Of a stretch of DNA of 64,000 nt, positions 30,948 through 56,099 are shown one piece after another. The notes below the pieces were generated by a model. It was given only the letters and a program-made list of their open reading frames with translations, searched no databases and was not told the DNA's origin. Position 1 is the first letter of the stretch. Each line of letters begins with the position of its first letter. The stretch lies in the NCBI GenBank assembly GCA_036924285.1, contig JAYKYS010000012.1, positions 2,976,001 to 3,040,000 of the forward strand, read 5' to 3'. This DNA is from Asterella californica. Its lineage: Eukaryota > Streptophyta > Marchantiopsida > Marchantiales > Aytoniaceae. The position numbers were made by a program, and so were the translations under genes.

Positions 30948-33481
30948 ATGGAAGGAAAGATGATGAACCGAATGATCGCCTCCGTTGTGCTTCTTCTGAG
31001 CCTTCCTCTGCCTTCGCTGGGAATCCAGGCCAATGAATCGCTTGCTTCGGTGAGAAGCATCTCTCAGCCCGAATACTGTATGTAGTGAAGAGAAAAGAAG
31101 CTCTGAAGTGAAAAGAGGATGAGAAGTTGTGCGCCTTCTTTCCTGTATATCTAGCACTTTGCGAAGAAGAAAAGGGAGAGTGTGGATTTGATGAATCTCT
31201 ATCTGAATAACGCTTGCTTGTTGTCCTAGGACCCTCATGGTACTGCAGATGTGTGACTAAATTCCAGAAGAAGGCACGATTTCTTTTAAATTGTGCGAGT
31301 TAGTAGTTCTGTGTGTTAGTAGTTCCGGCCAATGTCAGCTCACTCTCCACATCTAGGGTGTTACCATTTGAGCCAAGATCATCAAAAGTGATTATGTCAC
31401 CATAGACATTTCTACACACTTTCAGGGGCAGAGGAGATTGCTTAGGTCCATCCAAGGGTCTTTTTGACATTTTGACCACTTTCCTCGTCTTTTCACTCTA
31501 GTTCCATGCTTATCGAAGGAGAAAAGCGTAACATTCTCCATCTTGACCTCCGGACTGAAAAATATTTTCATCTCCAAGAATATAACATGTCAATCTGCGA
31601 GGTGAAACCCAGAATTCATGCGTGCATGCTGATGCCCATCCATGGTTGTTGATTTTTTTGCTTGCGTGCAGGTAGATCCGAATGCTAGAGTACCTGTAAG
31701 CGATACCTACGTGTTCGTCCATGGTTGTGGTCAAGCATCGTGGTCTTGGTACAGGATAGAGGCTATGCTTCAAGAATTAGGTTTCAGCACAATGGCTGTC
31801 GACCTGACTGCCCACGGGAAAGACAAAACAAACGCCGACACCGTCAGAACCTTGTCGTTCTATGCGAAGCCACTCACGGACTACTTGGCGCTACTGAATA
31901 AGAAGGTTCCTGCACTATATCTCCCCACAATTTTCTCTGCAACATTACAACATATTAACAGCCTCGACACGTCTGCCTTTGCTGCAAGTTGTATCTCGTT
32001 TTTTCTACCCTCTGAAACTCCTGTATATTCAAGGTCTGCAAACTCTGCGTACTAGTTTCCCTGGATCTATGAACGGCGTAGGATTTCCTTGAAGGAAAAG
32101 CTGCGCGACAGAGCTCCCACTGAAAAAAAGCTCTGAGTCTACAAGACATGACATTGTGCAAAACTGAACAGCCTGGCTCGTCTAAGACTATTGTACTGGA
32201 CTTAAGTGTTTGCCTATGGCTTGTGGGTTTGTACGTGATTGTAGGTTATACTGGTGGCTCACGGCATGGGGGGTGCTCCAGCATCTTATGCCATGGAAAC
32301 TTACCCCGAGAAGATCGCGAAGGCTATATTTCTATCAGCAGTTATGCCCTTAAATGGTGAAAGCGCACTCGACATGATCAGAGAAGTATGATCTTTCTGA
32401 ACATTTCTGACCGACCCACCGATCGATTCTTGGTCTGCGAAAACCTCACGTTCTGGGTCCAGTTCCTCAGGCCAGCCAAGCCCCATGAATGTCATTTGGA
32501 CCCTGCCAGTGAAACGAGTGTTTTCATTTGACAGTACTTCGCTAAAATATGCCTCGTCAAAGTGGTGTTGCATGTGTTAATAGAGCCCACCAAAGCCTCT
32601 TGTTTTCGTTCGTTCTTTTTGATACTCTTCGTGTATGTATGTTCCACAGAAAAAGTCTTTTAACGTTTCAGAATATCTACCTCAGCTTCTGATCGCTTAC
32701 TTCGATTTGCAGACTCTTCCAGTTCTGGCAAACAACTGTTATGTCGTCAATTACAACGATCCAGGAAGTGAACACCCTACCTCAGTCAAAATTAACATGA
32801 CCAATGCTAGATACTTCTACTACAGCAGGAGCCCCGTACAGGTAAAGTGTTTTAGCAACCTCGTTGCTAAACCTGATTCATCTATATAGTCTGACCAACA
32901 TTTTTATTTCTCCAGTAAAGGGGAATCTCTAGTGTAGGGGATCTTATACTCAGTTTGTGACTATTCTGATGTGGAGAGCTGTAAACAGCGGTCATCGTGG
33001 TTAAAGTCAAGGAAAAACATAGTTGGAAAGGTTCGAGCAGGTGTTTGTCCTTTCATGGACTGAATCAAAATTTCAAAAGCACCACTCGTTGTCATCACAA
33101 GCATAGCTTGATCGTATGCTGTTCAGACTCCACAAGGTTGTTGCACAACTTCCTCATTCTGACCACAGACAGACACTCAGATGTTGTTGTTGATTGCTCT
33201 GGCAGGACTTCACTCTGGCTGAGCATATGATGGAAGACACTCCTTGGGCCGTTTTCTACGACAACATGAAGCTCACAGATGCCAACTATGGATCGGTTGA
33301 AAGATACTACATTAGAACTGGACTGGACAAAATCATTCCTTGGAGTGTTCAACAGAAAATCATCGACCATAACCCACCTAAACAAGCGTATACTCTAAAA
33401 GACGGGGACCATTGTCCTTTTTTCTCTGAAACACCATGGTTACTCAAAATTCTCAAGGAGATTTCGTATCTCCGAGACTAG
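30948..33481 (+). CDS. Secreted methylesterase-like alpha/beta hydrolase (MES family), copy B
   Basis: Five exons (30948-31049, 31672-31905, 32245-32385, 32713-32841, 33206-33481) join in phase with GT-AG borders to 293 aa. Exon 1 gives a signal peptide (MIASVVLLLSLPLPSLG). Motifs: VFVHGCGQASWSWYR near the N-terminus, elbow VAHGMGGAP, Asp in GLDK, His in DGDHCPFFSETP near the C-terminus. As in copy A, the nucleophile Ser is Gly, while the Asp and His are kept. The 5' splice site of intron 1 (GTGAGAAGC) is identical to that of copy A, and exon 3 is 141 bp in both. The pair therefore arose by an inverted duplication. The start chosen is the first of several in-frame ATGs. Confidence 0.85.
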
Positions 33482-35323
33482 AGAGCTTGTCGGTGTTGCA
33501 TCTACTCGTAGCTTCCATTCGGTTCTTAACGCGTTCACAATTTATATTTCCTTATAGCGGACCGTCTGTCCTTTCTCTCGCTAGGTAGAAATCTTTGAGG
33601 TCACACAGAAGAGAGAGAGAGAGAGAGAACGCAAATAAGGTGATGATGTAGTCCGAGTTGCAAAGGGAGTGATCGATCAGTTGCTGTACGGTATCATGAT
33701 GTGCAAGATTTAGTGTTGTACCCTGGCTTTGCATGTGTAGAGTAATAAAGGATGTCAAAATCTCGTTTTCTATGCCTTAAATGACGCTGTAAATGGTACC
33801 TTATAGCTGAATCTGTTTCTTGCTGGCTTGGAGCTCGCAGCTGGCCCAGCCCTCTTCTTGATCATCACCATCAGATTGAAACTTCATTGAGTGGAAACAA
33901 CTACAATGTATCTTCATGGTTACTGCAAGTGCTAATTCGTGGGAAGATATTTCAAACTACCGTCCATCAGAGAGTACGAGCTCCACCCAAGAGGATCTTT
34001 GCTACAAGGTCAATAATAAGTGGGTCGAGTAACAACTAACAATCTTAGTTCAGCAATGATGTGAATAGTAATGTCTTCAGAAGGGTGAACAACTTGTGAG
34101 GGACCGTATCCTAGAGAAGAAGGCGAATGAATCCATACACTGCTTGGGTGGATTCTTACCTTTTACTCCAATAAACTCCTCCGGAGTCCTGACCTGTGTC
34201 CTTATAGTACGGATCAACTGATCATGAATCATGACTTGACCTATCAAGACACTTACTTACTTGGCTCAGAGCACTGGTAGAAGGGTATGGATCAGCAAAC
34301 TCAAACTGATGTCCGTATGGACTTGACCTCACAACCGTTACCAAACAATAACCTAAACCCTAAATATCGCGTGCTAAAATTCTAATCTCCTTGCATCGCA
34401 ATCGCATTCTCCATGAATCACAACTCCTTCAATCACCCTACAGATTTTCCCTTCAGAAAATTCTGCTATTAAAACTCTTGAAAAGTAGGGTAAAGAACTA
34501 AACATTCTCCTTGTATACATATATGTGCTTGAACATACCCCCAGTATGTTTATTGCGCTTGATAATACTCCTCTTAACAATGTTTTCTTGATCACACCCT
34601 TGATGGACTATCGTGAAACTAGTTACTCTTTCTTGTTGGTGTTAACGATGTATTTTTCATCACACCTCTGATTGACTCTCGATTGTGAAACTAGTCACTT
34701 TGTCAAGGTTAGTGATATGTTGGACTGGACAACTTTTTGAGCATGTATAGTCTGATGCGTATATTTTAATAATGAAACGATTTGAATTACATAAGTATTT
34801 AATCACTATCAAAAATAGTGAAATACTGAAAAAATTGACTAGTTTTACCCACTGTTGTTAGTCAAGGGTGTAATCAGAGGTAAATACGTGCTGGGGGTTT
34901 CATCAAGCAGATTTCTGCCTTGTATACATATGTATATCTTCTTCTACAAGGTATCTGGCGGCGCAGTTATTTACATGCACAATGATAAGTTAGTTTATCG
35001 TCTTTCATGTGGATGGCAGACCCTTTTTAGCATTTATGATCTGGAAAAGACGTTAGAGCCGTTACCTCAAATCTTGAATCATATATGACCAATCATCATT
35101 AAAAGCTCTGGTCAGTTTCTCTCTAAACATACCAAAGTATTCAGTCCACTACCAATCTTCCAATTGTTCTTTGCTGGGTTCTTGGGCATAAAGCGGATTT
35201 TCAGTAATGAATTAGTAAATTTCGAGTAAGGCTGTATATTCACCCATGTACACTTACAGAGTGTACATGGGTTATAATTTAGAGCTAACTTTTTTTTTAG
35301 GAAGGGTTAGTTTTAAATTATGC
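33482..35323. other. Intergenic between gene B and the DNMT retrotransposon
   Basis: It contains the probable 3' UTR of gene B, a (GA)n microsatellite at 33609-33628 and otherwise AT-rich DNA without recognisable genes. The last four bases (atgc, 35320-35323) are the target-site duplication of the following element. Confidence 0.55.
33609..33628. repeat. (GA)n microsatellite
   Basis: About nine to ten GA units lie just downstream of the stop codon of methylesterase-like copy B, probably in its 3' UTR. Confidence 0.9.
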
Positions 35324-35843
35324 TGTCGTGCGCATACACATCGCTACACAACATACATCGCTGTCAGAGGTACACCACACATACACATAACACATGGACG
35401 ATGTCATACACATATACAAGTATATCACAATTCATGTACCACAATCTGAATACAGAGATTACCATCTCCAACACCACAACAAGGACTACTCACAAACGGT
35501 CAAGCCAAACCCACTCTAAACGCAAAGAGAATCCGGGTTACACTCAACTAGACTATCCACCATAGCCTGGAGCTTGAAGGCTCAACTCAAAGAACTAAGG
35601 CCTCCAAGCCCTACCTGCGAAGTTTACCCCTAGTGGGCTCTCTCTCCAACTCGCCCTAACGGCACTAACGGCCTTACCGGGATGCGCCACTTCGCACTCG
35701 GTCAACCTAGCCGAGGGGTCCAAACTGACGTGACAGCTGTCGTGCGCATACACATCGCTACACAACATACATCGCTGTCAGAGGTACACCACACATACAC
35801 ATAACACATGGACGATGTCATACACATATACAAGTGTATCACA
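35324..35843 (-). repeat. 3' LTR of the DNMT retrotransposon
   Basis: On the minus strand it reads TGTGATACAC at 35843 to GCGCACGACA at 35324, 520 bp, directly after the purine tract. It is composed of unit A (35738-35843), a gc dinucleotide, core B (35443-35735), a 13-bp link and a second A (35324-35429). The two A units match at 105 of 106 bases. The A-gc-B join (GCACGACA gc TGTCACG) looks like an LTR-LTR junction. Confidence 0.75.
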
Positions 35844-35845
35844 AT

Positions 35846-35857
35846 CGCCCCCCTAAC
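35846..35857 (-). other. Polypurine tract of the DNMT retrotransposon
   Basis: GTTAGGGGGGCG on the minus strand lies two bases before the LTR start TGTGATACAC. The left-edge copy has GTTAGGGGAGCG at the same place. This is where plus-strand DNA synthesis would be primed. Confidence 0.65.
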
Positions 35858-36016: not shown

Positions 36017-36697
36017 CTATATACATCGAGGACAAACCCACCGTCCAATAGGAACTACACTGAGAGGTGGAGTCAAACATGACATGTGCCAACCTCTCGA
36101 ACAACCATCACACACCAACATACGGGCTGCTCCACCAGCAGACCCACACAACATACACCTCAAGCCCGCGCGTACAACTGCTAAGCTTGGGTCAACAGTA
36201 CCATCAATGTTGGGAAGATGACATGGCGCGCAATTACGCACATGGTCCTTCCACACAACACCATCACGGCCCTCTAACATGAGTACTCCAGAAGGTAACA
36301 CCTCACGCACTCGTAAAATAGTGCGCCTTGCGGTCACGTCCAACGTCGTCGGTGCAGTCTGCTGTAGATAGATATAATCGCCAGGATGAAACCTACGAAT
36401 CGACGGCCGATAACCTCCTCCTCGGATAGTCGCATACCGCAACGTGTCTCTATGCTGAGCAATCGCTAGATTCTCAAAAGCCATGGGCATAACTCTCCGA
36501 AATGTCTCTGCTCGTTGAGAACATGCTCTCACTCACATATCCGGGTCATCAAGGTTCAGCACCTCAGCAGAATCACGACGAATGACCGAAGGTAGATCTG
36601 GATCTCGACCGTATAATAGAAAATACGGTGAGAAGGAAGTCAAAGACGCTTGTCGGTTAAAACGGTAGCCCATAGCCAACCATGGTAACTGCACATC
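36017..36697 (-). CDS. pol: integrase C-terminal domain with C4HC3 PHD finger
   Basis: This is the 3' end of the element's single reading frame; it has no start codon of its own. After an in-frame TGA (36700-36698) it continues DVQLPWLAMGYRFNR and LLYGRDPDLP, meets a second TGA (36535-36533), then runs 171 codons to TAG. Part one is the integrase C-terminus (QHRDTLRY; FHPGDYIYLQQ; a barrel-like region to about codon 100 of the last segment). Part two is a PHD finger with C126, C129, C141, C144, H149, C152, C167 and C170 of that segment and the canonical Trp two residues before the last Cys pair (RWVCPRC). PHD fingers bind histone H3 tails; on an integrase the likely role is choosing chromatin targets, as chromodomains do in chromoviruses. 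Role inferred, motif seen. Confidence 0.85.
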
Positions 36698-37324
36698 TCA
36701 GTCTCCCAAGTGGCCTTTCTGCAAGCCATACTTACGCAATCCTCTCTTCACCGTCTGAACTACCCTCTCCGCCAAACCATTCGCCTCAGGATGATCTCGA
36801 GACGTAGTTCGATGATCAATCAACGCCTGATCACACAAGGCCTGAAACTCACCAAGGAACTCTGTACCTTGGTCTGTCAGCACTTCAGCTGGTGCTCCAA
36901 AACGACTCAGCACTCGATCTAAGAACGCATACGCCGTCCCTTCACTCGCCTTGTCTGGTAATGCCACCAACTCAATCCACTTGGAGAAGTGCTCCACCAT
37001 CACCAACACATACCGATGATGACGTACCGTCAACGGTAAGGGTCTCGCAAAATCCAAACTCCAACGGTAACCCAACCCCATAATCGATAAGGGGTGTAGT
37101 TGTGGAGTAGGAGCATTAAACAATGCTCGTACTCGATCACAAACCACACATCGTGCGACAAATTGTTGCACATCGACGTGCATACCACGCCACCAATACT
37201 GTCCTTGGAGTAAGCTATGCGTGCGCTTCACTCCAAAATGTCCCGAATCCTCATGAGCATGTCGTACTAATTGTGTCCTCTGGGATGGATGTGGCACTAT
37301 CCGTACTCTCCCATCATCCCACAC
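36698..37324 (-). CDS. pol: integrase zinc-binding and catalytic core
   Basis: The segment is 208 codons between two in-frame TGA codons, in the same frame as RT upstream; the GTG at its start is not a real initiator. It has an HHCC zinc module (H24, H29, C59, C62 of the segment; HEDSGHFG and CVVC) and a DDE core with D91 (WSLDF), D151 (VLTDQGTEF) and E186 (LAERVV). These are the residues needed to cut the target and join LTR ends. The TGA at 37327-37325 follows CTT and could derive from CGA by deamination of a methylated CpG. With all catalytic residues present, the stops are the only visible defects. Confidence 0.88.
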   Translation of the reverse strand: MWDDGRVRIVPHPSQRTQLVRHAHEDSGHFGVKRTHSLLQGQYWWRGMHVDVQQFVARCVVCDRVRALFNAPTPQLHPLSIMGLGYRWSLDFARPLPLTVRHHRYVLVMVEHFSKWIELVALPDKASEGTAYAFLDRVLSRFGAPAEVLTDQGTEFLGEFQALCDQALIDHRTTSRDHPEANGLAERVVQTVKRGLRKYGLQKGHLGD

Positions 37325-39112
37325 TCAAAGTACATGTCGTCCTTCTCGTCGAAATCTCTTCGTTCGTTGAAGGACACGATCTCGCTCCTTGGCACTTACT
37401 GTGTCTACCACCACACCAGTACGTAGATATTCCATCACGGTCACATGGTCATGGATATCTCGCTGGTTTGGAACACCATCTCCACCCTCAGGATCTGGAG
37501 ACTCGTCATCTATTCTCTCACTTGAGAAAGATACGACTTGACCCTTCATACTAGAGTTCATGACCAAAACACAAAGAAAGGCAGATGCATGCCACCCTGG
37601 CACTATCTCCTCATCAACCTCATCATGCCATCGAGCCCCAGTCTGATCCTGCTGACTCGTGCACGGGTTGCGACTCAACCCATCGGCATCTAGGTTTGCA
37701 ACTCCAGGTCTATGCACTACCTGAAATTCATACTCTTGTAAGATCAGAGCCCATCGTGCAAGCTTCCCTGTAAGCTTGTCGGACTCCATCAACCACTTGA
37801 GCGGCTGATGATCAGTGATGAGAGTAAAGGGGTTCCCAAACAGGTAACATCGGAAGTGTGCAACAGCCCACACTGCAGCTAAACACTCCCTCTCGTACGA
37901 ACTGTACCTCGCCTCCGCCGAATTGTTGGAGCGACTGGCATACGCCACCACAAACTCCTTTTTCTCATCATCATGCTGAGTCAGTACTGCTCCAAGTCCC
38001 AACATACTCCAATCGGTGTGCAGTTGGAAAGGACGCCCCCTAACGGGTCTCCTCAAGATGGGAGCAGATGTCAACCTATCCTTGAGCTCTACAAAAGCTC
38101 GCTCTTGCTCATCTCCCCATTGCCACTCCTGGTCCACCTTCATCAGCTTGGTCAATGGCTTCGCAATTGCACTAAATCCTTTCACGTATCGACGATAAAA
38201 GTTTACCAAACCAACAAATGCTCGAACTCGACTCACATCTGTGGGGCGTGGAATACGTGCAATGGCCTCGACCTTCGTCTGTTGAACACCCAACCCGCCT
38301 GGGTAGATGGTGTGACTCAAATACTCTACCAACTCCTGGAAGAACTTGCACTTCCCAGGATGTAACTTCAATCCATGAGCTCTCAACCGCTCGAACACAT
38401 CCCGCAAGTATCTCTCGTGCTCCTCCACTGTAGCACTATAGACCAAGATGTCGTCAATATAACATCTGACAAAATCCAATCCTGCTAGGATCCTATCCAT
38501 CACTCTTTGGAATTCAGCAGGGGCGTTCTTCAACCCAAATGGTAAGAACCGCCATTGATACAAGCAATCCTTGCCGTGAGAGTCAATCCCCCAGAATGCT
38601 GTCTTGGGCTTATCTTCTTCTCTCACTGGCAACTGATGATACCCTGCTCGAAGATCCAAAGTACTGAAGACCTTCACATGTCCCACTGCATCAAAGATCT
38701 CCTCAGGTGTCGGCATGACATACTTATCGCACTTCGTCTGTCGATTGATAAGACGATAGTCTCCACAGATGCGCCTATCCGTGTAGTTGCCATACATATC
38801 CTTCTTTGCTGGCATCACTGTGGCAGATGCATACTCTCCATGCGACATCTCCACCAACCCAGCTTCCACCAAGTCTTGAGTCCTACTCTGGATCAAGGTT
38901 CTCTCCATGTCACTGTACTTGTAAGGACGTCGAAAGATTGACGTGTCATTAGCCAAGTCGATCCGTATACCTGGTCCCTTCAAGGTACCCAAATCCTTCA
39001 TACTAAAGGCAAAACAATTCCTGTAGCTCTTCACGAATCTCTGAACTCTTCGTCTCTCCTCTTCTATAAGCTTGGGTCCAATCTCTGGCTCCCAAGTATC
39101 CTCTGTCACCAT
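37325..39112 (-). CDS. pol: reverse transcriptase and RNase H
   Basis: The segment is 595 codons, in frame with the Gag-protease-methyltransferase part from which it is separated by one UAG and ten sense codons. RT occupies about 50-330: catalytic D152 (STLDLRAGY) and Y217-I218-D219-D220 in CYIDDILVYS, with LPFGLKNAPAEFQ before it. RNase H spans about 360-480: D367 (LHTDWS), E409 (YERECLA), LITDHQPLKWL and the HRPGVANLDADGLSR end. The order RT-RNase H-integrase defines the Ty3/Metaviridae type. The ATG at 39112 could start a separate product, but readthrough of the UAG fits better, since a retroelement polymerase is normally made as a minor fusion. Confidence 0.92.
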   Translation of the reverse strand: MVTEDTWEPEIGPKLIEEERRRVQRFVKSYRNCFAFSMKDLGTLKGPGIRIDLANDTSIFRRPYKYSDMERTLIQSRTQDLVEAGLVEMSHGEYASATVMPAKKDMYGNYTDRRICGDYRLINRQTKCDKYVMPTPEEIFDAVGHVKVFSTLDLRAGYHQLPVREEDKPKTAFWGIDSHGKDCLYQWRFLPFGLKNAPAEFQRVMDRILAGLDFVRCYIDDILVYSATVEEHERYLRDVFERLRAHGLKLHPGKCKFFQELVEYLSHTIYPGGLGVQQTKVEAIARIPRPTDVSRVRAFVGLVNFYRRYVKGFSAIAKPLTKLMKVDQEWQWGDEQERAFVELKDRLTSAPILRRPVRGRPFQLHTDWSMLGLGAVLTQHDDEKKEFVVAYASRSNNSAEARYSSYERECLAAVWAVAHFRCYLFGNPFTLITDHQPLKWLMESDKLTGKLARWALILQEYEFQVVHRPGVANLDADGLSRNPCTSQQDQTGARWHDEVDEEIVPGWHASAFLCVLVMNSSMKGQVVSFSSERIDDESPDPEGGDGVPNQRDIHDHVTVMEYLRTGVVVDTVSAKERDRVLQRTKRFRREGRHVL

Positions 39113-39136: not shown

Positions 39137-39145
39137 TGACTGCTA
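39137..39145 (-). promoter_or_regulatory. Probable stop-codon readthrough site (UAG CAG UCA)
   Basis: The Gag-protease-methyltransferase frame ends at TAG 39145-39143, followed by CAG TCA. This fits the CAR-YYA context known from plant RNA virus and some plant retroelement leaky stops. The downstream RT is in the same frame. The older copy at 50595-51151 keeps the same nine bases. It would set a low ratio of polymerase to Gag. Predicted from sequence, not shown. Confidence 0.65.
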
Positions 39146-42100
39146 TCTTGCAGTCTCTGGAGCAGTTTCCTTCTGCTCACCACCAACAACCTCCACCGCT
39201 ACTGTGCGAAAAACTTCTGCAGTTCTAGCTGTAAGCTCCACACTCTCTCCTACGACATCCCATGATGTCCAAGGATGACGAACTCCACGTGCCTCGCCCC
39301 CAGCCTTTACCTCCACCGACCCGGTAGGCAAAGAGCTTAGGAGTGTCCGAGCAGTAACACCCGTCAGTCGCATCCGACGCTGCTCAGCCAATCCAAGACT
39401 AACAATCCATGTCAAGCAGTTCAAGTCCATTGCTTGACCCAACACTTGACGACGTGAAGCCTCTGACACCGAAGCTACTGCAGTCGTATCCGTAGAGAAA
39501 CCCATCGCTCTCTCTCTCTCGTCGGCATTGGACTCCACCAACTGTTGTAACCGAGCATCCCACACAAGCCCAGGTCCTCCATCTCTGTAAGCATGTGACG
39601 CTAGAAAGCTCACCAAAGTGGGTAACGCTGTCATAGGTTGTCCCACTAGGTTCACAACTGCCGTGGGTGACCTATCGACGACTCTCACTACTTGAGATCG
39701 TCGTCTTGCATCCAAGATGCCATCCACGGTGAGGTACGCTGGTCGTCTCACTGCATCGTGTGCGCGCTTGAGCACCTCTCTTGGTAACAAGTTCGTCCAC
39801 CACAACCGTGGACGATGTGCACGAGATCCCACTCTCCCTGCATCTGCCGGTCCGACCCAGGACCGCACTTGGTGCACACTCGTCATCATATGTGCACGAG
39901 CATCACCCAACAAAGGAACGTTCTCCAAGATGTACGCTGGAGAATCCACTTGATGCATCTGGAAATGTCGTAAGATCCGTACCATCTCCCAGAACATCCT
40001 AGATCGCGGGTCATGTAAACCCTGACCTCTCCCAGCACGCGTGTGACCTTGACATGGCCACCCGGCTATCACCAAGTGAATGGTGTCAACAAACGTGAGA
40101 TCCTGCGCCCCCAGCAGCGAAATATCTGACGGTAATGCTTGCTGGTATCCTCTAACAGCTGATATAGGCAACAACTCAGGATATCTCTGCACCAAACGCG
40201 CCACGTGACGCAATGAGACACGTCTTGTGACCTCATCTCTCTCCACATACAAGTATCGCTGTACTTGTATGCCTGCCTGCAATACCGCAGCCAAACCTGT
40301 GCTGATCCCTCCAAACAGCTCCACCACACACACATCCTCTTTTGGATACTGCCATGCAATGGGAGTCGTATCCAACGGTGTTAAGGTCACAGGGCCAGTA
40401 ACAGGAACACCCCGATGTTCTTCTACTGGCGGTACAAAGGCTTCACTCCAAGCTTGCTGTACCAACCGATCGACATACTGCTGCAACTCTCCACTCGAAC
40501 TCCAAAGTGGAACATCCAAAGCAGATGGTACTAACATAGACATGCTAGGCATGTCCTCCACCTCCTCAAAGACCGGAGTATCCTCCGCATGGACATTACC
40601 CTCCAACAACTCGTCCGACCAAGTGATGATCGAACTGAACCTTGCAACGGATGCCATCGTTCCTGGTGTAGGCTCCGTCGTCCCAACTCTAGCACTGAAC
40701 CGCACTGGTAAGCGGCTCACTCGTCCCTCACCGGACTGCCAACCTGGTCTGTAAGATGCTGTCTCTGCCCAATAGTCAATCACGAACCCCATAGGATACA
40801 ACACAGCACCTCCCACCAATACATCATAAGACTCTGCGGCTGTAACGATGGCCTTGGCCTTCACCATAGAGCCATCCGTGAGGTGATCTGGCCGAACTCT
40901 CACCGTCAACATCTCACGTGTCATGTGCAGAGCCGTACCTCCTGATCCCCCTAGAGATGTCTGCAACTGGAATGGACATCTCTCTATCTCGGACTTCTTC
41001 AGACCCAAACCAATACACGCCGTCTTTCCCAACATCAACGGTTGGGCTCCAGAGTCTAACAACACTTTCTGTGGTCGATACACCTTCCCTGAAGGTGCCA
41101 TCAAACAGAAGATACCACTTTTGTTGTCCAACAACATCACACCTGGTGCCAATCCAGCACGGTCAATTGCCGGTCTAGCTGGTAACTCATCTAGCCTAGC
41201 AGCCGCCGCTTGCCAAGTACCACTAGTAGCTGTCCTGATCTTCGATTCCATGGACACACCTACCGCCTCTTGCTGAACCACCTCAGCACTAGAGGTAACC
41301 ACATCCTCGCTCTCACTGAACGTGGCTGCCAACTGGAACACTGGAGTCAAGCTGACTCCCAATGCCTTCATATCCGTGGCTGAAAATAGTGGGGCTCGCA
41401 AGACTACGGTAGTCGTCCCCAACATCGGGTTCGACGTCGCATCCATAGACGTCGAGGGTTGACTCACATTATCCTCACTCTTGGATGTCGATGTCTCCAA
41501 CTCCACTGCACCATCGGTAGACCGTTTAGGAACCATAGAAGTGGTCCTCAATGCCTCTGATAGCGTGAACGATTGAGGAAGTCTGGTCTGTCTACCAGCC
41601 TCCCCGCGTTGTGGATCCAACTCCACTGACGCACCCCGTGGCTCAGATATACGCACTGCACTCCGAGTCACTGCCGCAGATGCCTCAATCTGCGCCACAC
41701 CAGCCATGAAGTCAAAGTCACCTCCTTCTCCTCCATAAGACGTGGAAGCTTCTGTTCCACCAGATCTCCGCTGAGCCATAGCCATACTAGCTATCCTCTG
41801 CTCCAACTGCTCAATCCGAGCAGCCATACCTGCTTCTGACGTCGTAGCAGGCGGTGGACCAACTGGTCCTCTCCCAGGTGCTGGACCTCTACCTCCAGCT
41901 CGACCACCACAGCTTCCCTGAGCTCCTCCGCCTTGTCCACGATCAGTCTTCCCGTGCCGTAGCTCCGGATGGAGATCAAAACAATGGTCACTACTGTGAC
42001 CTGGTCGTCCGCAGTGCTCACACTGCCTAGGCACCGCTTGAGACGTCACAGATGTCTCATAACTACCTCTCTTTTGTGGACAATCCTTCTGCTGATGAGG

Positions 42101-43252
42101 ACCATCACAAGTCCAACAAGGACCTGCTTGCTGCTGACTAGAGAAGGACGGCATGGGCTTCTGCCCACCAGATCCTCCAGCACCTCCATGGGATCGTGAG
42201 TGCTCAGCACGATCCTTACCACCACCACCACCACCTCGCTGTTGCGTAGCCTGTGATCCTCGAGAAAAGGAGGTCGCCCCATGTGATGCGTCTCTGCTGA
42301 ACCCAGCAGTCACCACACTCTCCTCTATCATGTTGAGCTCAATCCGCTCAGCCAAACCAAAGACAACCGTCAATGTCGGAGCGGTGTCTCTAAGGAGAGT
42401 GGCATCTCTGACTCTCCTACGCAGCTCCCGGTCTAGTATCCCATACCAGAACTGGACTGCCTGTGCTTCCGTCACTCCTTGGGTAACGCTGATCAACCGC
42501 CTCATGCGAGTAAACGCCTCGCGTAGGCTCTCTCCAGTCTTCCGCTGGAACTCCTGCAGACTCTTCAACTTGTCGGTCCGTACACCCTGATAATTCTTCC
42601 TCAAACAGTGGAAGAACTGAACCACAGGGTTAAACTCAGGTGGTATCTCGCTCGCACTACCACCTGCTCCACTACTAGTGGACGCACCGCTGGTAGTAGG
42701 GACTCCGCCACCCGTGGATGTACCACTACTACTGGCACCTGACCTCGAAGGTGCTACGCCTCCCGAAACTGCACCAGTAGTGATAGAAACGTAGTTGGGA
42801 GACCAATGTTGTCTCCACAACTCAATCTCAACACCGTAGTCTCGCCTGAACTCGTGGTAATCGTCCATCGGCGGTCCCTCCAAGTGCTGAAACAAACCCT
42901 TCCACGCCATGAAAGGTGTGAACAACTGTGGGTTCCTCATCTGTTGCAGATCGCACCAACTGTCAAACTCCTGGATGAAGTCATCCAGCTCAATGGTACC
43001 CACCGTACCCGAGTAACGTCGAGGTCCTTTCGTGGCCCCATAGATCTCGTCCATGTCCCACAACAACAATGTGGTGACACTAGTCTCACCAGCAGAAAAC
43101 GCACTGTCTGCGTTTGACTCGTCCTCTGGAACAACCAACGGCAATGGTGTAGGTAGTCGGTACCTCACCCCACTCCGTGTATACCCACTATCCGAGAAGT
43201 CCCCACCAGAACCTCCCGAGAACTCCGTGGTGATAGAATCTCGCGAACACAC
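39143..43252 (-). CDS. Gag - protease - C5-cytosine DNA methyltransferase polyprotein
   Basis: The reading frame is 1369 codons. Gag capsid-like region about 65-310 (LREAFTRMRRLISVTQG); Gly/Ser-rich linkers; zinc knuckles 379-391 (CWTCDGPHQQKDC) and 411-424 (CEHCGRPGHSSDHC); aspartic protease about 700-830 with D733-S-G-A and the flap-like VLVGGAVLYPMGFVIDYW. A methyltransferase fills about 973-1290: motif I VVELFGGISTGLAAV; motif II YLYVERDE; motif IV GWPCQGHT with nucleophile C1067; motif VI YILENV (E1110); motif VIII SRAHRPRLWW; a short recognition region about 1160-1235; motif X ERERAMGFSTDTT ending SRRQVLGQAMDLN. The motif X pattern and short recognition region are closest to DNMT3/DRM enzymes. 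All catalytic residues are present, so it may methylate its own cDNA or nearby chromatin. No relation to a host gene could be tested here. Confidence 0.92.
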   Translation of the reverse strand: MCSRDSITTEFSGGSGGDFSDSGYTRSGVRYRLPTPLPLVVPEDESNADSAFSAGETSVTTLLLWDMDEIYGATKGPRRYSGTVGTIELDDFIQEFDSWCDLQQMRNPQLFTPFMAWKGLFQHLEGPPMDDYHEFRRDYGVEIELWRQHWSPNYVSITTGAVSGGVAPSRSGASSSGTSTGGGVPTTSGASTSSGAGGSASEIPPEFNPVVQFFHCLRKNYQGVRTDKLKSLQEFQRKTGESLREAFTRMRRLISVTQGVTEAQAVQFWYGILDRELRRRVRDATLLRDTAPTLTVVFGLAERIELNMIEESVVTAGFSRDASHGATSFSRGSQATQQRGGGGGGKDRAEHSRSHGGAGGSGGQKPMPSFSSQQQAGPCWTCDGPHQQKDCPQKRGSYETSVTSQAVPRQCEHCGRPGHSSDHCFDLHPELRHGKTDRGQGGGAQGSCGGRAGGRGPAPGRGPVGPPPATTSEAGMAARIEQLEQRIASMAMAQRRSGGTEASTSYGGEGGDFDFMAGVAQIEASAAVTRSAVRISEPRGASVELDPQRGEAGRQTRLPQSFTLSEALRTTSMVPKRSTDGAVELETSTSKSEDNVSQPSTSMDATSNPMLGTTTVVLRAPLFSATDMKALGVSLTPVFQLAATFSESEDVVTSSAEVVQQEAVGVSMESKIRTATSGTWQAAAARLDELPARPAIDRAGLAPGVMLLDNKSGIFCLMAPSGKVYRPQKVLLDSGAQPLMLGKTACIGLGLKKSEIERCPFQLQTSLGGSGGTALHMTREMLTVRVRPDHLTDGSMVKAKAIVTAAESYDVLVGGAVLYPMGFVIDYWAETASYRPGWQSGEGRVSRLPVRFSARVGTTEPTPGTMASVARFSSIITWSDELLEGNVHAEDTPVFEEVEDMPSMSMLVPSALDVPLWSSSGELQQYVDRLVQQAWSEAFVPPVEEHRGVPVTGPVTLTPLDTTPIAWQYPKEDVCVVELFGGISTGLAAVLQAGIQVQRYLYVERDEVTRRVSLRHVARLVQRYPELLPISAVRGYQQALPSDISLLGAQDLTFVDTIHLVIAGWPCQGHTRAGRGQGLHDPRSRMFWEMVRILRHFQMHQVDSPAYILENVPLLGDARAHMMTSVHQVRSWVGPADAGRVGSRAHRPRLWWTNLLPREVLKRAHDAVRRPAYLTVDGILDARRRSQVVRVVDRSPTAVVNLVGQPMTALPTLVSFLASHAYRDGGPGLVWDARLQQLVESNADERERAMGFSTDTTAVASVSEASRRQVLGQAMDLNCLTWIVSLGLAEQRRMRLTGVTARTLLSSLPTGSVEVKAGGEARGVRHPWTSWDVVGESVELTARTAEVFRTVAVEVVGGEQKETAPETAR

Positions 43253-45005
43253 TCTCTAACCCGAATGTCGAAATCCCCGTCACCACCGTAACTACAACTT
43301 GCCTATCCCCGCTCCTACTGAGCTCATCTATCCCTTACTAGGACAGTCAAGGTAACTGCCATCACCACAAGCAGCCTCTCACGGTTTGTTGGTCGTCACT
43401 CCAACTGCACCGTGAGAGAAACAAAGGTAGTCTGACTGGTCATCACTCCAGCCTCACTACCGACAGCACACTAGAGTGAACTCACTCTGGAAATCAAGCG
43501 CCAACACAAGCAAACACGGCGAACAAACAGGAAGCAGAATATGGAGGGGTTCCAACCACAAGAAGTCCAAACGATAACCCTCCACATTCAAACATTCACA
43601 TTAAGAGAAACCCAGCCCCACTCGGACTGACGCGTCTTCTTCGGTGATCACATGCATAATATATGATCACCGATTGTCATAACCTGCACCTAAGGTCACT
43701 AACTAGCCGTCCACACTTCTAGTAGCTCCAAAATATCAATGTGATAGCTCTACTAGCTCATCCAAGATAACTGCTACCAACTGCCTTCATACGCGTCTTT
43801 TCGGTATAGACAAACACTACCACAACAGCAGCTTCCTCCTAGTACTATGGGGTCGCCCTACCACTCTTCTAGGAACGTGCGAGCAGGTCTTCTACTACCT
43901 TAAACCAGCCCCTAAGTACTTGCACGCATCCCTGTAAGACACCAAGAGCTATTGGTCTAGTGGTACAGCCAAAGTTGAGGCTACAGAGTTAAGCGTCCAA
44001 GTCCAGAAATAGTGTTGGGATGGGTGACCTACTGGTTTTACACTTCTCACACAACTGAAACTTGGATACCTCTCTCACGCACGCCAGCAAGCTGGCTTGC
44101 AGCGGACGCGGGCGCGGGCTCGGACTCCGCCTCCGCACTCTCGCACTCCGCTCTCACGCCTCCGCACTCACGCACCTCTGCTCCTCGAAGCCTCGAAGCG
44201 CCTCCTAACACGCAACTCCACACCTCGACACTCCCGCTCACTCTCCGCCCCGCTCCGCTTGGAGAAGAGTACCCGGGCCAAACACCATAAAGAAGGACGA
44301 GTACGACGAGAAAACACCCGAAACAGCAACTCAGGGTCGAAATTGCACCAAATTGTCGAAATCAGCCAATTTGGAACTCGCAGACGGGATTTACGTCAGA
44401 TTTTGGTCAACCCGCGACCTTCTTCGGCTTGTAACTTCGTCGATCCTTCACCAAATCGAACGATTTTGGTTGCGTTAGAATCGTCTTCCCGGCGCGCACC
44501 TACTGCACTCCTCAGATCCAAAAATTATCGACCCAATCCAACCTGACACTCCCCGACGCACTTCGGCCGACCTAAAACTCGTCACCAAAATCCGTCACCA
44601 GAAATTCGACTTCCCATAACTCGCAAACGGCTCGACCAAACTTCGTGAATCTTCTTGCACTAGGACCGTCTTCCCAGCGCGCTTCCAACGAGCCCACATT
44701 GGTCTGACATTGTTGACTATTTCGTCTGCCACGCCCAAATGCGCACTTCAGCCCGAAAATGGTCACTTGAACACATTCCGCGAAATTTCAGCAGCGCTTC
44801 CGCACGACAGAAATCTCCACTCGACCCCAACAACAGCAAATCGATCTGCGACCAGCAATGTAGCACGGCGTCCACACACCTCGATCACAGCTCCAAACAA
44901 TCAACCACGAACGGCAACGCCCGAAGATACCAGCAGACGATTTCTGATTTCAGATCTGCGAGCTCTTACTGAACTCCGCCTCGACCTGCACTCAGTTCTT
45001 TGAGT
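43253..45005 (-). other. Untranslated leader of the DNMT retrotransposon
   Basis: About 1.75 kb between the 5' terminal repeat and the Gag start, without an open reading frame in the element's sense. On the minus strand, 44047-44290 is a GC-rich, purine-rich stretch with repeated gtgcggaggcg-like words. A Pol III-like block is embedded at 43950-44040. Leaders of plant Ty3 elements often carry packaging and dimerisation signals; none can be named here. Confidence 0.6.
43950..44040 (+). ncRNA. tRNA/5S-rRNA-like Pol III promoter block, antisense to the retrotransposon
   Basis: 43987-44035 aligns without gaps to the internal control region of plant 5S rRNA: AGTTAAGCGT (box A, 10 of 10) and GGATGGGTGACCTACTGG (box C, one mismatch), with the natural 49-base span and about 36 of 49 matches (plant 5S from memory). 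Just upstream, TTGGTCTAGTGGTAC (43952-43966) looks like a tRNA D-arm/box A. A TTTT follows at 44036-44039, as for Pol III termination. The 5' half of 5S rRNA is not recognisable, so this is not a 5S gene. It could be a SINE inserted in the leader or an element-borne antisense promoter. Confidence 0.55.
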
Positions 45006-45298
45006 AATCTGAATACAGAGATTACCATCTCCAACACCACAACAAGGACTACTCACAAACGGTCAAGCCAAACCCACTCTAAACGCAAAGAGAATCCGGG
45101 TTACACTCAACTAGACTATCCACCATAGCCTGGAGCTTGAAGGCTCAACTCAAAGAACTAAGGCCTCCAAGCCCTACCTGCGAAGTTTACCCCTAGTGGG
45201 CTCTCTCTCCAACTCGCCCTAATGGCACTAACGGCCTTACCGGGATGCGCCACTTCGCACTCGGTCAACCTAGCCGAGGGGTCCAAACTGACGTGACA
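45006..45298 (-). repeat. 5' terminal repeat (core B) of the DNMT retrotransposon
   Basis: 293 bp identical to 35443-35735 except for one base (t/c at about 45224). On the minus strand it begins TGTCACGTCAG directly at the target duplication and ends CTGTATTCAGATT, after which the leader diverges from the 3' end. It lacks both A units of the 3' LTR, so either the 5' LTR is shortened or the family uses an unusual terminal layout. Confidence 0.85.
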
Positions 45299-48200
45299 AT
45301 GCCTTAATCATTCACTTGACTTGTAAAGAAAAATTGACTTATACCTCGATACGTTCCAGTTCTGTCGTTACGCTTATGGGTTTTTCTGGTTCTCACAAGT
45401 CATGTGTTTCGCTCACAAGAGAAGTTTAAATTAAGTGTTTTAATTTTAGTATATTAAATTTAGCACATTTGACTTGGACGTTTTGACGTGAATTTAAATT
45501 TAGCACAATTTTACTTAGATGTTTTTACAAAACCGGGCGTGATTTTCATTGTATACATCGCACCCCCTTCACTGCACCTCAGTAAAACAAAATGTATTTA
45601 AATTTACACTGTATCCCCTGCTTCTTTCACTGTACTCCAATAAAACAGAAGTATTTAAATTGACACTGCACCCCGGCTTCTTTCATGTACAAGTCCGTGG
45701 GAAAGAATATTATGAACTAATTGATCAACATATGATAATTAATTCATTTTGCCATGAGCCAATAATTTTATCATATGTAAATTTCAGGAGTCTTGACAAA
45801 GGGGTAAGGAATTACGCGCATGCATAAAAAGATTAATTATGTTTCGCGCTGTGAAAAATGGTTTAGTTCTCCTTTTTCGACATTTGACTGAGTTGTCATC
45901 TTACCTGCCCGACTACTTGCCCTTTTGGTTGAGCTGTCATCCTACGTGGCTTGTTTACATCCACATGACGAGTCCGCTTCCTGAACTGTTTGACTACTCA
46001 ATTTGCCACCTGCCGTTTTAGCACGGAACCTGTTTTAGCATCCTATGAGAGATATTGAATATCATTTTTATCTCTTATTTCTATTTTATATCAGGACTAT
46101 AACAAATTTCCGGGGCCTTATAATATAATGGATATCATATTATTTACTTTTATCATTTTTATATTATAAATCTAGTTTTTACACATATAAATAATAAATC
46201 TATCATCAACCAGACGTGGCATATATATCCATTTACTTCTATTAACTTTTTAAGATTATGTAATAATCATGTACTTATCCTATTTGATATATTTATTTGA
46301 TCGTACATGGTTTAGGAATAGAGCGAAGAATGACCTCCCAGAACCTATTATGAAACCTTTTCACTTTTCAAATTTATGTGGTGAGTTTTAGCGCATACCC
46401 TTACGGAGAATAATTTCAGAGTGAACTGAACTGAGAGTAAGCTACTCAACTACCAATGGCTCCTGACTTTAGTGTCCTCACTTTCCTAGGTGTCAAAGAA
46501 GTTGATCAATATTCTTATTTATATATTTTTTCTAGATGACAAAACCTTTACACGCACCTTATGATTTTTACAGTTTTCCAAGTTATGTAGTTATTGGATA
46601 TTATTGGATCATGTAGTTATTGGATATTATTGAATCACGTATTGGATTATATAGTGATTGGATATTATTTTCGAAGATGTTTTCGATAACATGTCGCGAT
46701 CTCTTGTATTAGATTTTGTCGTTTAAAAGAAGAGACATGTAGTCACATTATTGGAGAGATTGCTTAATGGCAAGCTTTTTCAATTAGCGATCATTACGGT
46801 ACCTCCGACCTACGGTTTGTCCCTAAACTTAAAAGTTAAGTTATTAGATTCTTTCTCCTCATCAACTCTTATATATATTTTTTTACGTTTCTTTCTGTTT
46901 TTTCTCTATCTGCTTTGATTTCTCATCTTCCCATTTACTTCATTCTCGCAACTCTTTAATTTTATCCATAATTGCTTTTCTTTCTAGCCTTCTTACTTTC
47001 TTTTCTCTGTCTCCTTTCCGTTTCTATCTGGCATGCTTTTGGCGTCTTAGCCATGGTAGGTTTGCTATTACTTTTTTACGCAAGCTTAATATATTATCTA
47101 AATTTTTAGTAAAAAAGAATTAGATAATAAATTAATTAAATTATTGTTTTTAATTTTTAAACTGCCGCACTTGTACTCTTGGAAGCATTGGTCTACGTTT
47201 CACTTATGGATTTTCTTTAAATTTTTCTTCAATTATAAATACGACTATTATTGAACATTTACATATAAACTGTGATTTTCGTTTGAACATACTATGTTTA
47301 TGCATGCGTTTTCTGTTAATAAAAGAGGAGCAAAAGTTCTCCAAAGGTGGTTGAGCATGCTTGTTTTATTAGGCTGCATCGACCCCTTGAGAGACACACT
47401 TGCATCCATTCCTTGTGCATTGCTGCTGGCTGTTTGATCTAGTGAGTGGAAGATTGACACAGAAATGACACTAACTGATCAAGTTATACCATAGTAAGAT
47501 AGAATCCAAGTGGGTTATACCCGTGTTAATGAACGAGTATGAATTGTACCATGAAAGTGTTTATCACTCGTCCGTGTTCATCGAAGACTTAATGTTAAAT
47601 ATCAAAACCCATTAAAACAGACACACTGTAAGAAACTGTCCGTTGAAAAATGACAAGTTACTTTTAAAGTGGATGCACGACCTAAAAAGTCTTTGCTATG
47701 CAAGAATTGCCAAGATTTAAAGCCCGGCTAGGCCCATGTATCATTCCAACAGTGAAGAAGGAAGACTTGCATCGGTATCTCTCTCTCGGTCTTTTTCACA
47801 TCAGTATAGATCATTTTTGTCTGTTAACTTAGCAATTTGTGAGAAGGAAAAGAGTAAAAGCCAGTTGTTGAACATGATATTAAAGTTGTGTAGGATCAAC
47901 AACATACGTTGTGTATGTGAAATAATATGCATTCAACATTAACTTTTGGGGAACTTTTGCCCGGTTGCTGTTATCGAGAAAGACACAAGTGTTAAAGCAT
48001 AAATTCTATACTAAACTTAAAGGAAAATGTTAGCTGGACCTGGAAATGCAGAAAGATTCAACATAATCCACAAAAGAAGCATAAACTCACGCGTTCCAAG
48101 AATTACACGTGTGACTATCTACTGATAAACTTTTTAATTTATTTAATCAACAGATTAATTTAGTATCTAATCCTTGCATATTTACCTCCTCTATCAGAAG

Positions 48201-50594: not shown

Positions 50595-51151
50595 GTATGA
50601 CAATAGTAGTTTTAGTGTCGGAGGTTTCATTTCATCAGGTGTTGGATCAAGCAATGGACTTGAACTCCTTGACTTGGATTGTTAGCCTTGGATTGGCTGA
50701 GCAGCGTCGGATGCGATCGACGAGTGTTACTGCTCGAGCACTTTTGAGCTCTTTGCATACCGGATCGGTGGAGATAAAGATTATAGATGAGGCGTGTAAA
50801 GTTCGTCATCCTTCCACATCATGGGATGCAGTAGGAGAAAGTGTGAAGCTTGCACTAGGACTGTAGGAGTTTTTTCGCATAGTGGAAGTTGTTGGTGGTG
50901 AGCAGAAGGAAATTGCTCCAGAGACTGCAAGATAGCAGTCAACGACTTCGTCTTCTATCTCTAACGTGGTGATAGAGGATACTTGGGAGCCAGAGATTGG
51001 ACCCAAGCTTATAGGAGAAAAGAGGCGAAGAGTTCAGAGATTCCTGAAGAGCTACATGGATTGTTTTACCTTCAGTATGAAGGATTTGGGTACCTTGAAG
51101 AGATCATGTATACAGATTGACTTGGCTAGTGACACGCTAGTCTTTTGACGT
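50595..51151 (+). pseudogene. Fragment of a DNMT-family element: methyltransferase motif X to RT start
   Basis: The plus strand encodes the end of the methyltransferase (VLDQAMDLNSLTWIV), the spacer, the stop TAG followed by CAG TCA, and the beginning of the RT part (VIEDTWEPEIGPKLIGEKR to IQIDLASD). Compared with 39143-43252 it carries an extra stop (after VKLALGL) and many substitutions, and the ATG opposite 39112 is GTG here. That argues against a separate RT start in this copy. It is cut at about 51151 by the LTR of the next element. Confidence 0.85.
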
Positions 51152-51354
51152 TGTCGCACTACATGACGACTACATGTTACACTTCTACTCCAACACTTGA
51201 GTTTAGTAGTTCTAGAAGTTAGCTAAATATTACTTCTAGTATTTTATGCATATATTTGACACCTTTGCATATGATGTTAACACTATTAAGTTATATATTT
51301 TGAGTCCTAATAGATTTATAGTATGTTATTTATCTTGTTCAAGCATTCGTACGA
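51152..51354 (+). repeat. First part of the 5' LTR of the plus-strand Ty3 element
   Basis: It starts TGTCGCACTAC right at the end of the DNMT fragment. The segment ttatatattttgagtcctaatag matches the minus-strand reading of the neighbouring LTRs (tatatattttgagtcttagtag), which shows it is LTR sequence. The LTR resumes at 60267 after the minus-strand element inserted into it. Confidence 0.6.
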
Positions 51355-52668
51355 TATTGAATTGAGAGTTTTTCTCGGGAAAGACGGAACCTTTTGGCTG
51401 TGATATGAGCTTGAAGGATGTGTTCAGTCTACTTAGGGAAGCACTAGACTCCTGGCTGTGACTGGTTGGCTCAAAGGATAGGCTTCAGGTTACAAGGTGA
51501 TACTGAAAAATGCCATACAAGTCTCTTGGCTCTTCTGATATGTTCAGGAAGCAAAGTTCAGGCTTAACTAGCAACGATAAGATCTGACGGCGAACTTTGG
51601 CACTCAGGATTGAGAAATATGTAAATTTTTAGACTTCAGAACTTCTCCTACATGTAAATGAGGTCTTACTGGATACACATATGAAGTTTCAGCTTGAGAT
51701 CAGTTCAGAGCACCGAGATATGGGTAGAAACTTTCTGAACAGAGAAATTACGGTAATTTCTGGTACCCAGATAGCTATTTCGACCTATAACAGGAAATTG
51801 GCTCGATCAACTTCGAAGTTTATTACAGGATTTGCAGTACACAGCTTGCTGAACACTCCTGTGAAGTTGGGTCTCCTGATTGTACGCAGAACTCCAGATC
51901 TCGCTCTCTGAAGTTGCTGCTCCAGATTGAGAGCTTTTCAGACCCCCTCAGCTTCAGCGGCCGCCCTGAATTACTCAGTCACTCAAATGATATGAAAATT
52001 TTTGGACAGTCATAGCCCGGCTGACAGTGAACGCAACCTTGAAGGTTTGAAGCGATTTCGTCGATTCCACTGCAATTGACACTCAAAACACCCCAAAATC
52101 AACAAAAGTGATGCAGTTTTGGCACAATCCGAACTTCAATTGGGCATAACTCCTTGTTTATTGATCCAAATCGATCAAGAATTTCACTGATAGTGCTTGG
52201 CACGACGAGCTCTATCTCCTTGTGCTCTCAGATTTTGCAGTGCCCTCACCAATTGCTCGAAATCCACTCTAGAGCTCTGTTCCTAAACTTAGAGTTTTAC
52301 AAAAGACAAAAATGGACCAATGGGAGTTCATAGCTCCACTTGACTGTCCTTTTGTGCCTTAAACTACCTGGTAACTTATCTACACTCATAGGCTACCACG
52401 TCAAGCCCCCTCGAGTATCAACGTAAAACTTAAACTACCTAAAATGACACGCAGCCCCGAAAAGTAACTTAAATTAGCGTGCATGGGCGAGACGCAAATA
52501 CAACCCATGAGCTTTAACCCTATCAACATGGCTATCAACCTACTAAGACTCAAAATATATAACATTTTTCAAAAATGGACTTCTCTGAGGTCTTAACTTC
52601 ACTTCGAGAGACTAACGCCTGACAGAGAAGTGAATCATTTACTATGTGAAATGATTCACATCACGACA
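51355..52668 (-). repeat. 3' LTR of the minus-strand Ty3 element
   Basis: Minus-strand start TGTCGTGATGTGAATC at 52668, directly after the purine tract. It is homologous over its full length to 58959-60266. An unrelated-looking plus-strand frame inside it (51681-51911) is present in both LTRs and is not considered a gene. Confidence 0.85.
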
Positions 52669-52682
52669 TCCACCCCCTCCAA
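52669..52682 (-). other. Polypurine tract of the minus-strand Ty3 element
   Basis: GGAGGGGGTGGA on the minus strand is immediately adjacent to the LTR start TGTCGTGATG, the expected primer site for plus-strand synthesis. Confidence 0.75.
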
Positions 52683-52714
52683 ACCTGCACATCCTCCGGT
52701 ATGTGCCAATCTCC

Positions 52715-53650: not shown

Positions 53651-53653
53651 CCC

Positions 53654-55000: not shown

Positions 55001-55521
55001 CCATCAGAAGTCACAGCTTCGTCTTTGTCTTCCACCGGACAGCCTTTCATGAGAATATCATCCAAAAACGGGATAGTGATCTCAGGTACAAACTCTCGTA
55101 ACACCTTATGCATCGCATTCTGCATATGGGCTACTGAGTTTGTCGCACCCTGAGGAAGAATACACATCTGCATCAATCCCAAAGGTGTACGCATGGTAGT
55201 CAAGTCTCTACTCTCCAAAGCAAGCTGAAACTGATCATAATCTGAAAACAGATCTCCAATAGAATAGATTGATCTTCCAGCAAACGTCTCAGCTACTTCA
55301 TCAACCACAGGTCCTGTTCCAACGTTTCGAATCGTGATGTTGTTGGTAGGCTGTAAGTCTTGGATGAAGCGCAGAGCTCCTGTCTTCTTAGATACTATGA
55401 ACCATCGGTTAGAGTACGGAGCCATAGATGGTTCAAGAATACCCATCCGCATCCTCTCTTTCAGTAACTCAATCCCTTCGGTAGCAAGACACGAGGGACT
55501 GGAATCGGCTTCAAGTCCCAA
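54829..55521 (-). pseudogene. Reverse transcriptase palm, minus-strand Ty3 element
   Basis: RT fingers and palm: RMRMGILEPSMAPYSNRWF, LRFIQDLQPTNNITIRN, YSIGDLFSDYDQFQLAL (first Asp), TPLGLMQMCILPQGATNS and the catalytic box PFLDDILMKG. FLDD replaces the usual Y-x-D-D, a form I remember from certain Ty3 lineages; not checked. Frameshifts on both sides disconnect it from the protease and thumb parts. Confidence 0.8.
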
Positions 55522-55997: not shown

Positions 55998-56099
55998 TTA
56001 TTCCATCGACCTATCTACATCATCCAGCCAACGAACAAAAGACTGTACACTTACAAACTCCTCATAAACACCAGAAATCATCTCATCTTCCTTCAGAAC

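Follow-up and report, generated by a model that had tools for sequence, protein, structure and literature searches.

Transposons are silenced by DNA methylation, and it is therefore paradoxical that an element should retain a de novo methyltransferase of its own. The closest described case is KnitGypsy-Dnmt3 of the charophyte Klebsormidium nitens (de Mendoza et al. 2018); in the excerpts of that article used here (PMC5890265), the capture is treated as independent in the K. nitens lineage, and the words PHD, Gag and chlorophyte are absent from the main text. The same excerpts report that two dinoflagellate retrotransposon domains methylate CG, and they propose methylation of cDNA. A passage of another article, citing the 2018 paper, places some streptophyte and dinoflagellate DNMT3s within long terminal repeat (LTR, "Copia") or DIRS elements (PMC12344493). 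Our survey of open-licence literature, mostly titles and the starts of abstracts, found no account of gypsy elements with DNMT from bryophytes or chlorophytes, and none is reported in the passages used of PMC3542737, PMC6317226, PMC9861306, PMC6453930, PMC9516144, PMC10952607 and PMC8616336. In the literature as surveyed, the gypsy case had been based on one charophyte. Here we describe a DNMT3-bearing Ty3/gypsy element in a 64,000-nucleotide stretch of the Asterella californica genome (contig JAYKYS010000012.1, positions 2,976,001 to 3,040,000; hereafter, the window), with relatives in other bryophytes, including the model Marchantia. Because Marchantia has mutants, methylomes and transformation, the paradox is now testable.

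The main copy of the element lies on the reverse strand of the window, as do all of its features given below. Its ORF1 (open reading frame 1, 39143 to 43252, 1369 amino acids) encodes Gag, a protease and a DNMT3-type methyltransferase, in that order. The Gag part carries CCHC knuckles, read by eye. The protease region, for which we take the segment used as protease query (residues 691 to 850, 40703 to 41182), contains LLDSGAQ, likewise seen by eye, which is presumably the protease motif. Under the ORF convention used, ORF1 opens with GTG; the ATG at 43052 to 43054 (residue 67) seems the likelier start, because the Marchantia proteins P0001, P0002 and P0004 begin there, although the Marchantia gene models P0009 and P0031 align from residue 5.

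The methyltransferase domain occupies residues 972 to 1290 (39383 to 40339), as judged from profile, fold and motifs. A preliminary description of this DNA had claimed that an LTR-type element holds a complete C5-methyltransferase within its Gag-protease frame, and had named a profile search as a check. The claim held: the 1369-residue frame contains a match to the Pfam C-5 cytosine methylase family (PF00145) at residues 1043 to 1119, with 36.4 bits against a cut-off of 22 bits, and all motifs are at the residues given in that description, namely I (F980-G982), II (E1004), IV (PC1067Q), VI (E1110-N-V), VIII (R1147-x-R1149) and X (G1272-x-x-M-D). Motif reading makes Cys1067 (40052 to 40054) the catalytic cysteine. 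The PF00145 match, combined with motifs I, IV (PC), VI (EN), VIII (RxR) and X, marks the domain as a C5-cytosine methyltransferase, and the motif order I-IV-VI-VIII-X within residues 980 to 1276 is unpermuted. By profile and predicted fold, the domain is nearer to DNMT3A/B than to DNMT1, DNMT2 or bacterial enzymes, and it is of the DNMT3 type. It has the fold and motif order of animal DNMT3A/3B at approximately 20 to 24% identity in structural alignments; a Pfam scan found neither PWWP nor ADD in the same chain. The domain had been called "DNMT3/DRM-like", and only the first half of this label survives. DRM enzymes have a rearranged order, with motifs VI-X before I-V (excerpt of PMC9861306), and a DRM-like origin is rejected because the order here is unpermuted. 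No DRM appears among the best 50 fold matches shown, although such rows say nothing on a permuted fold.

The stop before the reverse transcriptase (RT) is a UAG, as had been described: the TAG lies at 39143 to 39145, and RT goes on in the same frame. The boundary between DNMT and RT reads TAG CAG TCA (39137 to 39145), a type I leaky-stop motif (UAG-CAR-YYA) that an excerpt of PMC3542737 gives as the tobamovirus readthrough motif, and UAG-CAG-UCA in this element is predicted to be read through. CARYYA follows 7 of the 1851 TAG triplets in the window, two of which are this site and its counterpart in a decayed fragment of a third copy (50605 to 51151, forward strand) that holds the DNMT end, TAG-CAG-TCA and the start of RT. 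Around the stop, this fragment agrees at 69 of 70 bases, compared with 86% across 554 columns; since these 70 bases were picked as the best of all stretches of that length, the conservation is suggestive only.

We also compared C-terminal ends among 22 proteins that have a DNMT domain of at least 330 amino acids without RT, RNase H or integrase. Behind the domain, four proteins of the Marchantia group have 63 to 69 amino acids and 14 of a related unnamed group have 73 to 133; outside both groups, the lengths are 469 (P0037), 157 (P0132), 84 (P0133) and 5 (P0138). ORF1 of the window ends 64 amino acids behind the domain cut used. DNMT is joined to RT or integrase in six Marchantia/Sphagnum models: P0004, P0007, P0010 and P0015 skip the residues flanking the stop, as though the gene models had placed an intron there, and P0011 and P0013 lack larger pieces. 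The deposited proteins P0032, P0177 (Klebsormidium) and P0230 (Closterium) continue through into RT. Overall, the break between DNMT and RT looks like a trait of this branch that puts the enzyme on the Gag side.

Three protein searches show how widely the family is distributed. The first, which scored the 7988 candidates with most shared words, yielded 42 proteins, of which many belong to Marchantia polymorpha, many are unnamed and one comes from Sphagnum fallax; the second yielded 113, including Monoraphidium and Cymbomonas; and the third, with RT to PHD of P0032 as the query, gave 489 matches. Our classification covers the 120 listed matches of the third search, which include Klebsormidium, Closterium, Chlamydomonas, Pleodorina, Tetrabaena and Haematococcus. 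Among these 120, DNMT lies between RNase H and integrase (RH-INT) in 84, before RT in 18 (between protease and RT, PR-RT, as in the window), and none is recognised in 18, comprising eight proteins of the pseudoscorpion Cordylochernes and ten with a PHD finger. Since the protease is present in four of the ten, a cut-off N-terminus does not account for their lack of DNMT.

The preliminary description had made its reading depend on family copies keeping the domain at this place, and relatives do: proteins of Marchantia, Sphagnum, Klebsormidium and Closterium, together with many unnamed ones, have it in the same position. Of the copies inside the window, one is cut before the DNMT region and the fragment at 50605 to 51151 spans the domain end only. 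Judged from these sequences, the relatives span chlorophytes, charophytes and bryophytes, the capture is not confined to the window element, and so broad a distribution suggests a long-kept use rather than an accident. The nearest named kin are Marchantia and Sphagnum proteins, as expected for a land-plant host. Sphagnum P0015 and the window element are 65% identical in the columns that they share, and over the same columns nine Marchantia proteins reach 58 to 64%. Identity to P0032 is 45% in DNMT, 52% in RT-RNase H, 60% in integrase, 56% in PHD, 27% in protease and 23% in Gag.

All four catalytic residues are kept in 188 of 197 domains, with P0002, P0004 and seven RH-INT rows making up the remaining nine, and in 42 of 44 where DNMT precedes RT. 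Klebsormidium P0177, which is too short for this count, keeps PCQ and RxR. The losses are deepest in Chlamydomonas reinhardtii P0207 (four of four residues) and Pleodorina P0163 (three of four), and neither has the catalytic cysteine; with the ten PHD-bearing relatives that show no DNMT, they indicate that activity is not indispensable. The enzyme thus appears to be constrained in most of the domains seen and given up in some. We also observed six proteins (P0207, P0163, P0165, P0169, P0181 and P0198) in which the catalytic cysteine and the EN motif are lost and the domain is kept in the polyprotein. A further Rossmann-like stretch stands behind PHD in P0034 and P0035, with a trace in P0207; it reads DPWAGTGTI...TSPWF in P0034 and by eye resembles a second methyltransferase, of the N6-adenine type. 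P0041 and P0139 are very divergent and have a DNMT-like domain before RT, with SPC as motif IV in P0041. P0042 and P0108 are family proteins filed under bacterial metagenome-assembled genomes (Spirochaetia and Minisyncoccia), which is probably binning contamination. Viral contigs, scanned once with six peptide patterns, gave no relatives.

To follow the history of the capture, we built a DNMT tree from 129 domains of at least 300 amino acids (128 of 142 proteins, and the window) and a DNMT3A fragment, 130 rows in total, using a short search and Shimodaira-Hasegawa-like approximate likelihood-ratio (SH-aLRT) supports only. The DNMT3A fragment, on a very long branch, is the single cellular DNMT3 in the trees, which hold no cellular plant DNMT3. 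The window falls just outside eight Marchantia rows, its nearest kin, and the RH-INT group (97 rows) forms one side of a branch with support 91, below the starred level. The RT tree holds 78 of 175 eligible rows, with RH-INT thinned at random and named rows kept; five of its six pseudoscorpion gypsy rows were preset as outgroup and the sixth fell with them. The other 72 rows share one branch (support 100). PR-RT rows spread toward the base, RH-INT rows are nested inside and rows without DNMT are scattered; the RH-INT label needs two changes and absence of DNMT six. On DNMT and RT trees of the same 56 rows (20 PR-RT and 36 RH-INT, with 30 of the RH-INT rows chosen at random), one change splits the two positions in DNMT and in RT alike, and within the PR-RT group the distances for DNMT match those for RT (r = 0.82, 0/999).

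The simplest reading of these trees is one old capture at PR-RT, one move to RH-INT and several losses. Three results pull the other way: the distances disagree within the RH-INT group (r = 0.04, 340/999), the PR-RT label needs five changes on the RT tree, which makes position a less clean label, and P0041 and P0139, with DNMT before RT and on long branches, join the RH-INT side of the DNMT tree. It is possible, and in our judgment somewhat unlikely, that the PR-RT and RH-INT domains were instead taken independently from related cellular DNMT3 genes. Such a double capture would fit the largely separate groups on the DNMT trees, where the sole cellular outgroup sits on a very long branch; the pol and PHD common to both groups speak against it, as does the single RT branch that sets all 72 rows apart from the pseudoscorpion proteins.

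Regarding function, the reading that we favor, with a probability that falls a little short of even, is that a Ty3/gypsy element packs its Gag-level DNMT3 into the particle and methylates its own cDNA before integration; we prefer the cDNA as target because DNMT has a place on the Gag side. If the UAG is leaky, the methyltransferase would be made at the level of Gag, and RT and integrase would need readthrough. An enzyme made with Gag would be present in many copies per particle, where the element's own cDNA would be the nearest substrate and could be methylated before integration. The new copy would then enter the nucleus pre-marked as host-like, shielded from sensing or from cytosine damage, and the PHD finger on integrase would read the target chromatin. 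Packaging, activity on DNA, the cDNA as target and the benefit to the element are all steps that we infer. The earlier suggestion that the element could methylate its own DNA or its surroundings seems reasonable, and the Gag-side place with its leaky-stop motif would give a clear, cheap prediction on dose and packaging.

Several observations count against methylation of the cDNA or leave it without help. The Klebsormidium domain, the nearest to have been tested, showed no methylation in yeast, a result that its authors call inconclusive (excerpts of PMC5890265), and Klebsormidium P0177 has EHV in place of ENV in motif VI. Motif IV is PCQ in the window and PCN in DNMT3A. The DNMT-like stretches of Chlamydomonas P0207 and Pleodorina P0163 are without the catalytic cysteine, and the ten PHD-bearing relatives mentioned above show no DNMT. 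The stop is confirmed in DNA only for the window element and its fragment, and the pol of the main copy is broken by three in-frame TGA codons, at 37325, 36698 and 36533. CpG is undepleted in the element (0.80, compared with 0.77 outside). Among C-to-T changes in the decayed copies, CG is not strongly preferred, and the counts are too weak for an argument: CG 17/122, CHG 13/80 and CHH 39/380 in copy 2, and CG 9/48, CHG 8/49 and CHH 22/176 in the fragment at 50605 to 51151.

An unlikely alternative, though one to be taken seriously, is that the enzyme, released after entry, acts on host loci or on the surroundings of the new copy, guided by the PHD finger of integrase, and steers chromatin or damps expression toward coexistence. 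PHD accompanies DNMT in 162 of 181 proteins having both DNMT and integrase (of 238 fetched), and it is similar to the fingers of MLL3, CHD4, KDM5B and DPF proteins; de Mendoza et al. discuss reduced transposition and effects on chromatin where the element inserts (excerpts of PMC5890265). However, DNMT and PHD are at opposite ends, parted by the stop and by a protease that may cleave them. We consider it quite improbable that the domain does something other than DNA methylation, either acting on RNA or forming a structural or nucleic-acid-binding part of Gag. A position beside Gag would suit genome binding, and the inactivity of the Klebsormidium domain in yeast and the volvocine relatives that retain the stretch without catalytic residues would both fit; against this, a merely structural part would have no need of the cysteine, and the catalytic residues persist at the frequencies given above (188/197 and 42/44). 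That the domain is a functionless passenger, fused recently by chance in one broken copy, might be read from the three further stops in pol, and it is contradicted so directly by the relatives named above, from Marchantia to Closterium, which carry the domain in the same position, that we give it almost no weight.

Joining the cDNA reading to the history gives a wider account, which as a whole is doubtful. DNMT-PHD gypsy elements would be one ancient green-algal and bryophyte lineage equipped with a PHD reader and with a DNMT3 writer that was captured once and then inherited with pol. In bryophytes, the writer would be made at Gag level through a tobamovirus-type leaky stop, particles would mark their own cDNA, and each new copy would arrive already labelled as self; in algae, it would have moved into Pol, and in some volvocines the domain would be dead.

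The remainder of the main copy bears on the kind of element. Behind the stop lie RT and RNase H (37325 to 39112, up to the in-frame TGA at 37325 to 37327), integrase with an H2C2 zinc motif and rve core (36698 to 37324, up to the TGA at 36698 to 36700), and the C-terminal part of integrase with the PHD finger (36017 to 36532, the finger at about 36017 to 36163). The repeats are split direct repeats in the layout A1-body-B1-A2-B2: A1 (45006 to 45298, 293 nt, the left end, starting TGTC), B1 (35736 to 35845, 110 nt), A2 (35443 to 35735, 293 nt) and B2 (35322 to 35431, 110 nt, with the element end probably at GACA, 35324). A1 and A2 differ at 1 position in 293, and B1 and B2 have 1 mismatch. Target-site duplications of GCAT stand at 45299 to 45302 on the left, where 3 bp (CAT) are possible, and at 35320 to 35323 on the right. 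Ends of TGTC...GACA flanked by GCAT, seen in one copy, are expected because the element encodes a DDE integrase. Copy 2, decayed and cut by the window start (1 to 2472, forward strand), runs from integrase-PHD into B1-A2-B2 in the same order; its right end is GACAG followed by other bases, and therefore a 3-bp duplication is possible.

Within A1, CTTAGTTCTTTGAGT (45148 to 45162) is complementary to ACTCAAAGAACTGAG directly behind A1 (44991 to 45005), which predicts Tf1-like self-priming, with the first stretch as self-primer and the second as primer-binding site; we prefer this reading to a tRNA primer. The pairing has 15 pairs (14 Watson-Crick), was matched in 0 of 500 letter shuffles of A1, and is reached in 1 of 192 sliding windows along the element, the site's own window included. 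By sequence, AGGGGGGCG (35846 to 35854), directly before B1, is polypurine-tract-like. The LTR unit would then be B+A, bounded by the purine tract and the primer site, and the integrated form would look as if a two-LTR circle had been cut open at its inner palindrome, GACAGCTGTC.

Given the split repeats, an ordinary LTR pair was rejected; the preliminary description's LTR retrotransposon is right as to an LTR-type element, with the refinement that two plain LTRs, a usual but not defining trait of Ty3/gypsy elements, are absent here. The order protease-RT-RNase H-integrase with an rve integrase, and the short target-site duplication of one copy, place the element in Ty3/gypsy. Split direct repeats would fit DIRS/PAT, but a Pfam scan of the four element ORFs found no tyrosine recombinase, and the integrase is of the rve type. 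The same scan found PHD and no chromodomain at the integrase end, which speaks against a chromovirus.

Elsewhere in the window, a second LTR retrotransposon (51353 to 59984, reverse strand) has repeats at 51353 to 52386 and 58957 to 59984, approximately 7.6 kb apart, with pieces 92 to 98% identical; its Gag and Pol ORFs are broken, and no DNMT was seen by eye, with no profile run. Exon-like ORFs on both strands at 28412 to 32055 look by eye like plant methylesterase-type alpha/beta hydrolases and are probably host genes, and one at 12188 to 12760 looks, likewise by eye, like a PDR-type ABC transporter.

A gypsy element with DNMT3 is a known kind, and comparison with described systems shows what this one adds. 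REM1 of Chlamydomonas is a green-algal gypsy element with a methylase signature and PHD. Chlamydomonas P0207 differs from the window element in having the domain between RNase H and integrase, without catalytic residues. SymbioDIRS-Dnmt3 and SymbioLINE-Dnmt of dinoflagellates also carry a cytosine methyltransferase in a retrotransposon, with CG activity in yeast for SymbioDIRS-Dnmt3 (excerpts of PMC5890265), but they belong to other classes (DIRS and LINE) and other hosts. Tf1/Sushi and the plant Tcn1 use self-priming in place of tRNA priming, as predicted here, but are chromoviruses with a chromodomain, where the window element has a PHD finger and DNMT (excerpts of PMC6317226). KnitGypsy-Dnmt3 is most alike, with Gypsy domains, an unrearranged DNMT3-type domain and a DIRS-like repeat structure; its DNMT is in the Pol ORF, whereas that of the window is in the Gag-protease ORF before the UAG (excerpts of PMC5890265). 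The partial Klebsormidium protein P0177, probably a member of that published family, has the order PR-DNMT-RT-RH-INT of the window. Compared with these systems, the new features are the presence of members in bryophytes, the wide occurrence in green algae, the existence of two DNMT positions, the Gag-side ORF with its leaky-stop motif, the PHD partner and the predicted self-primer.

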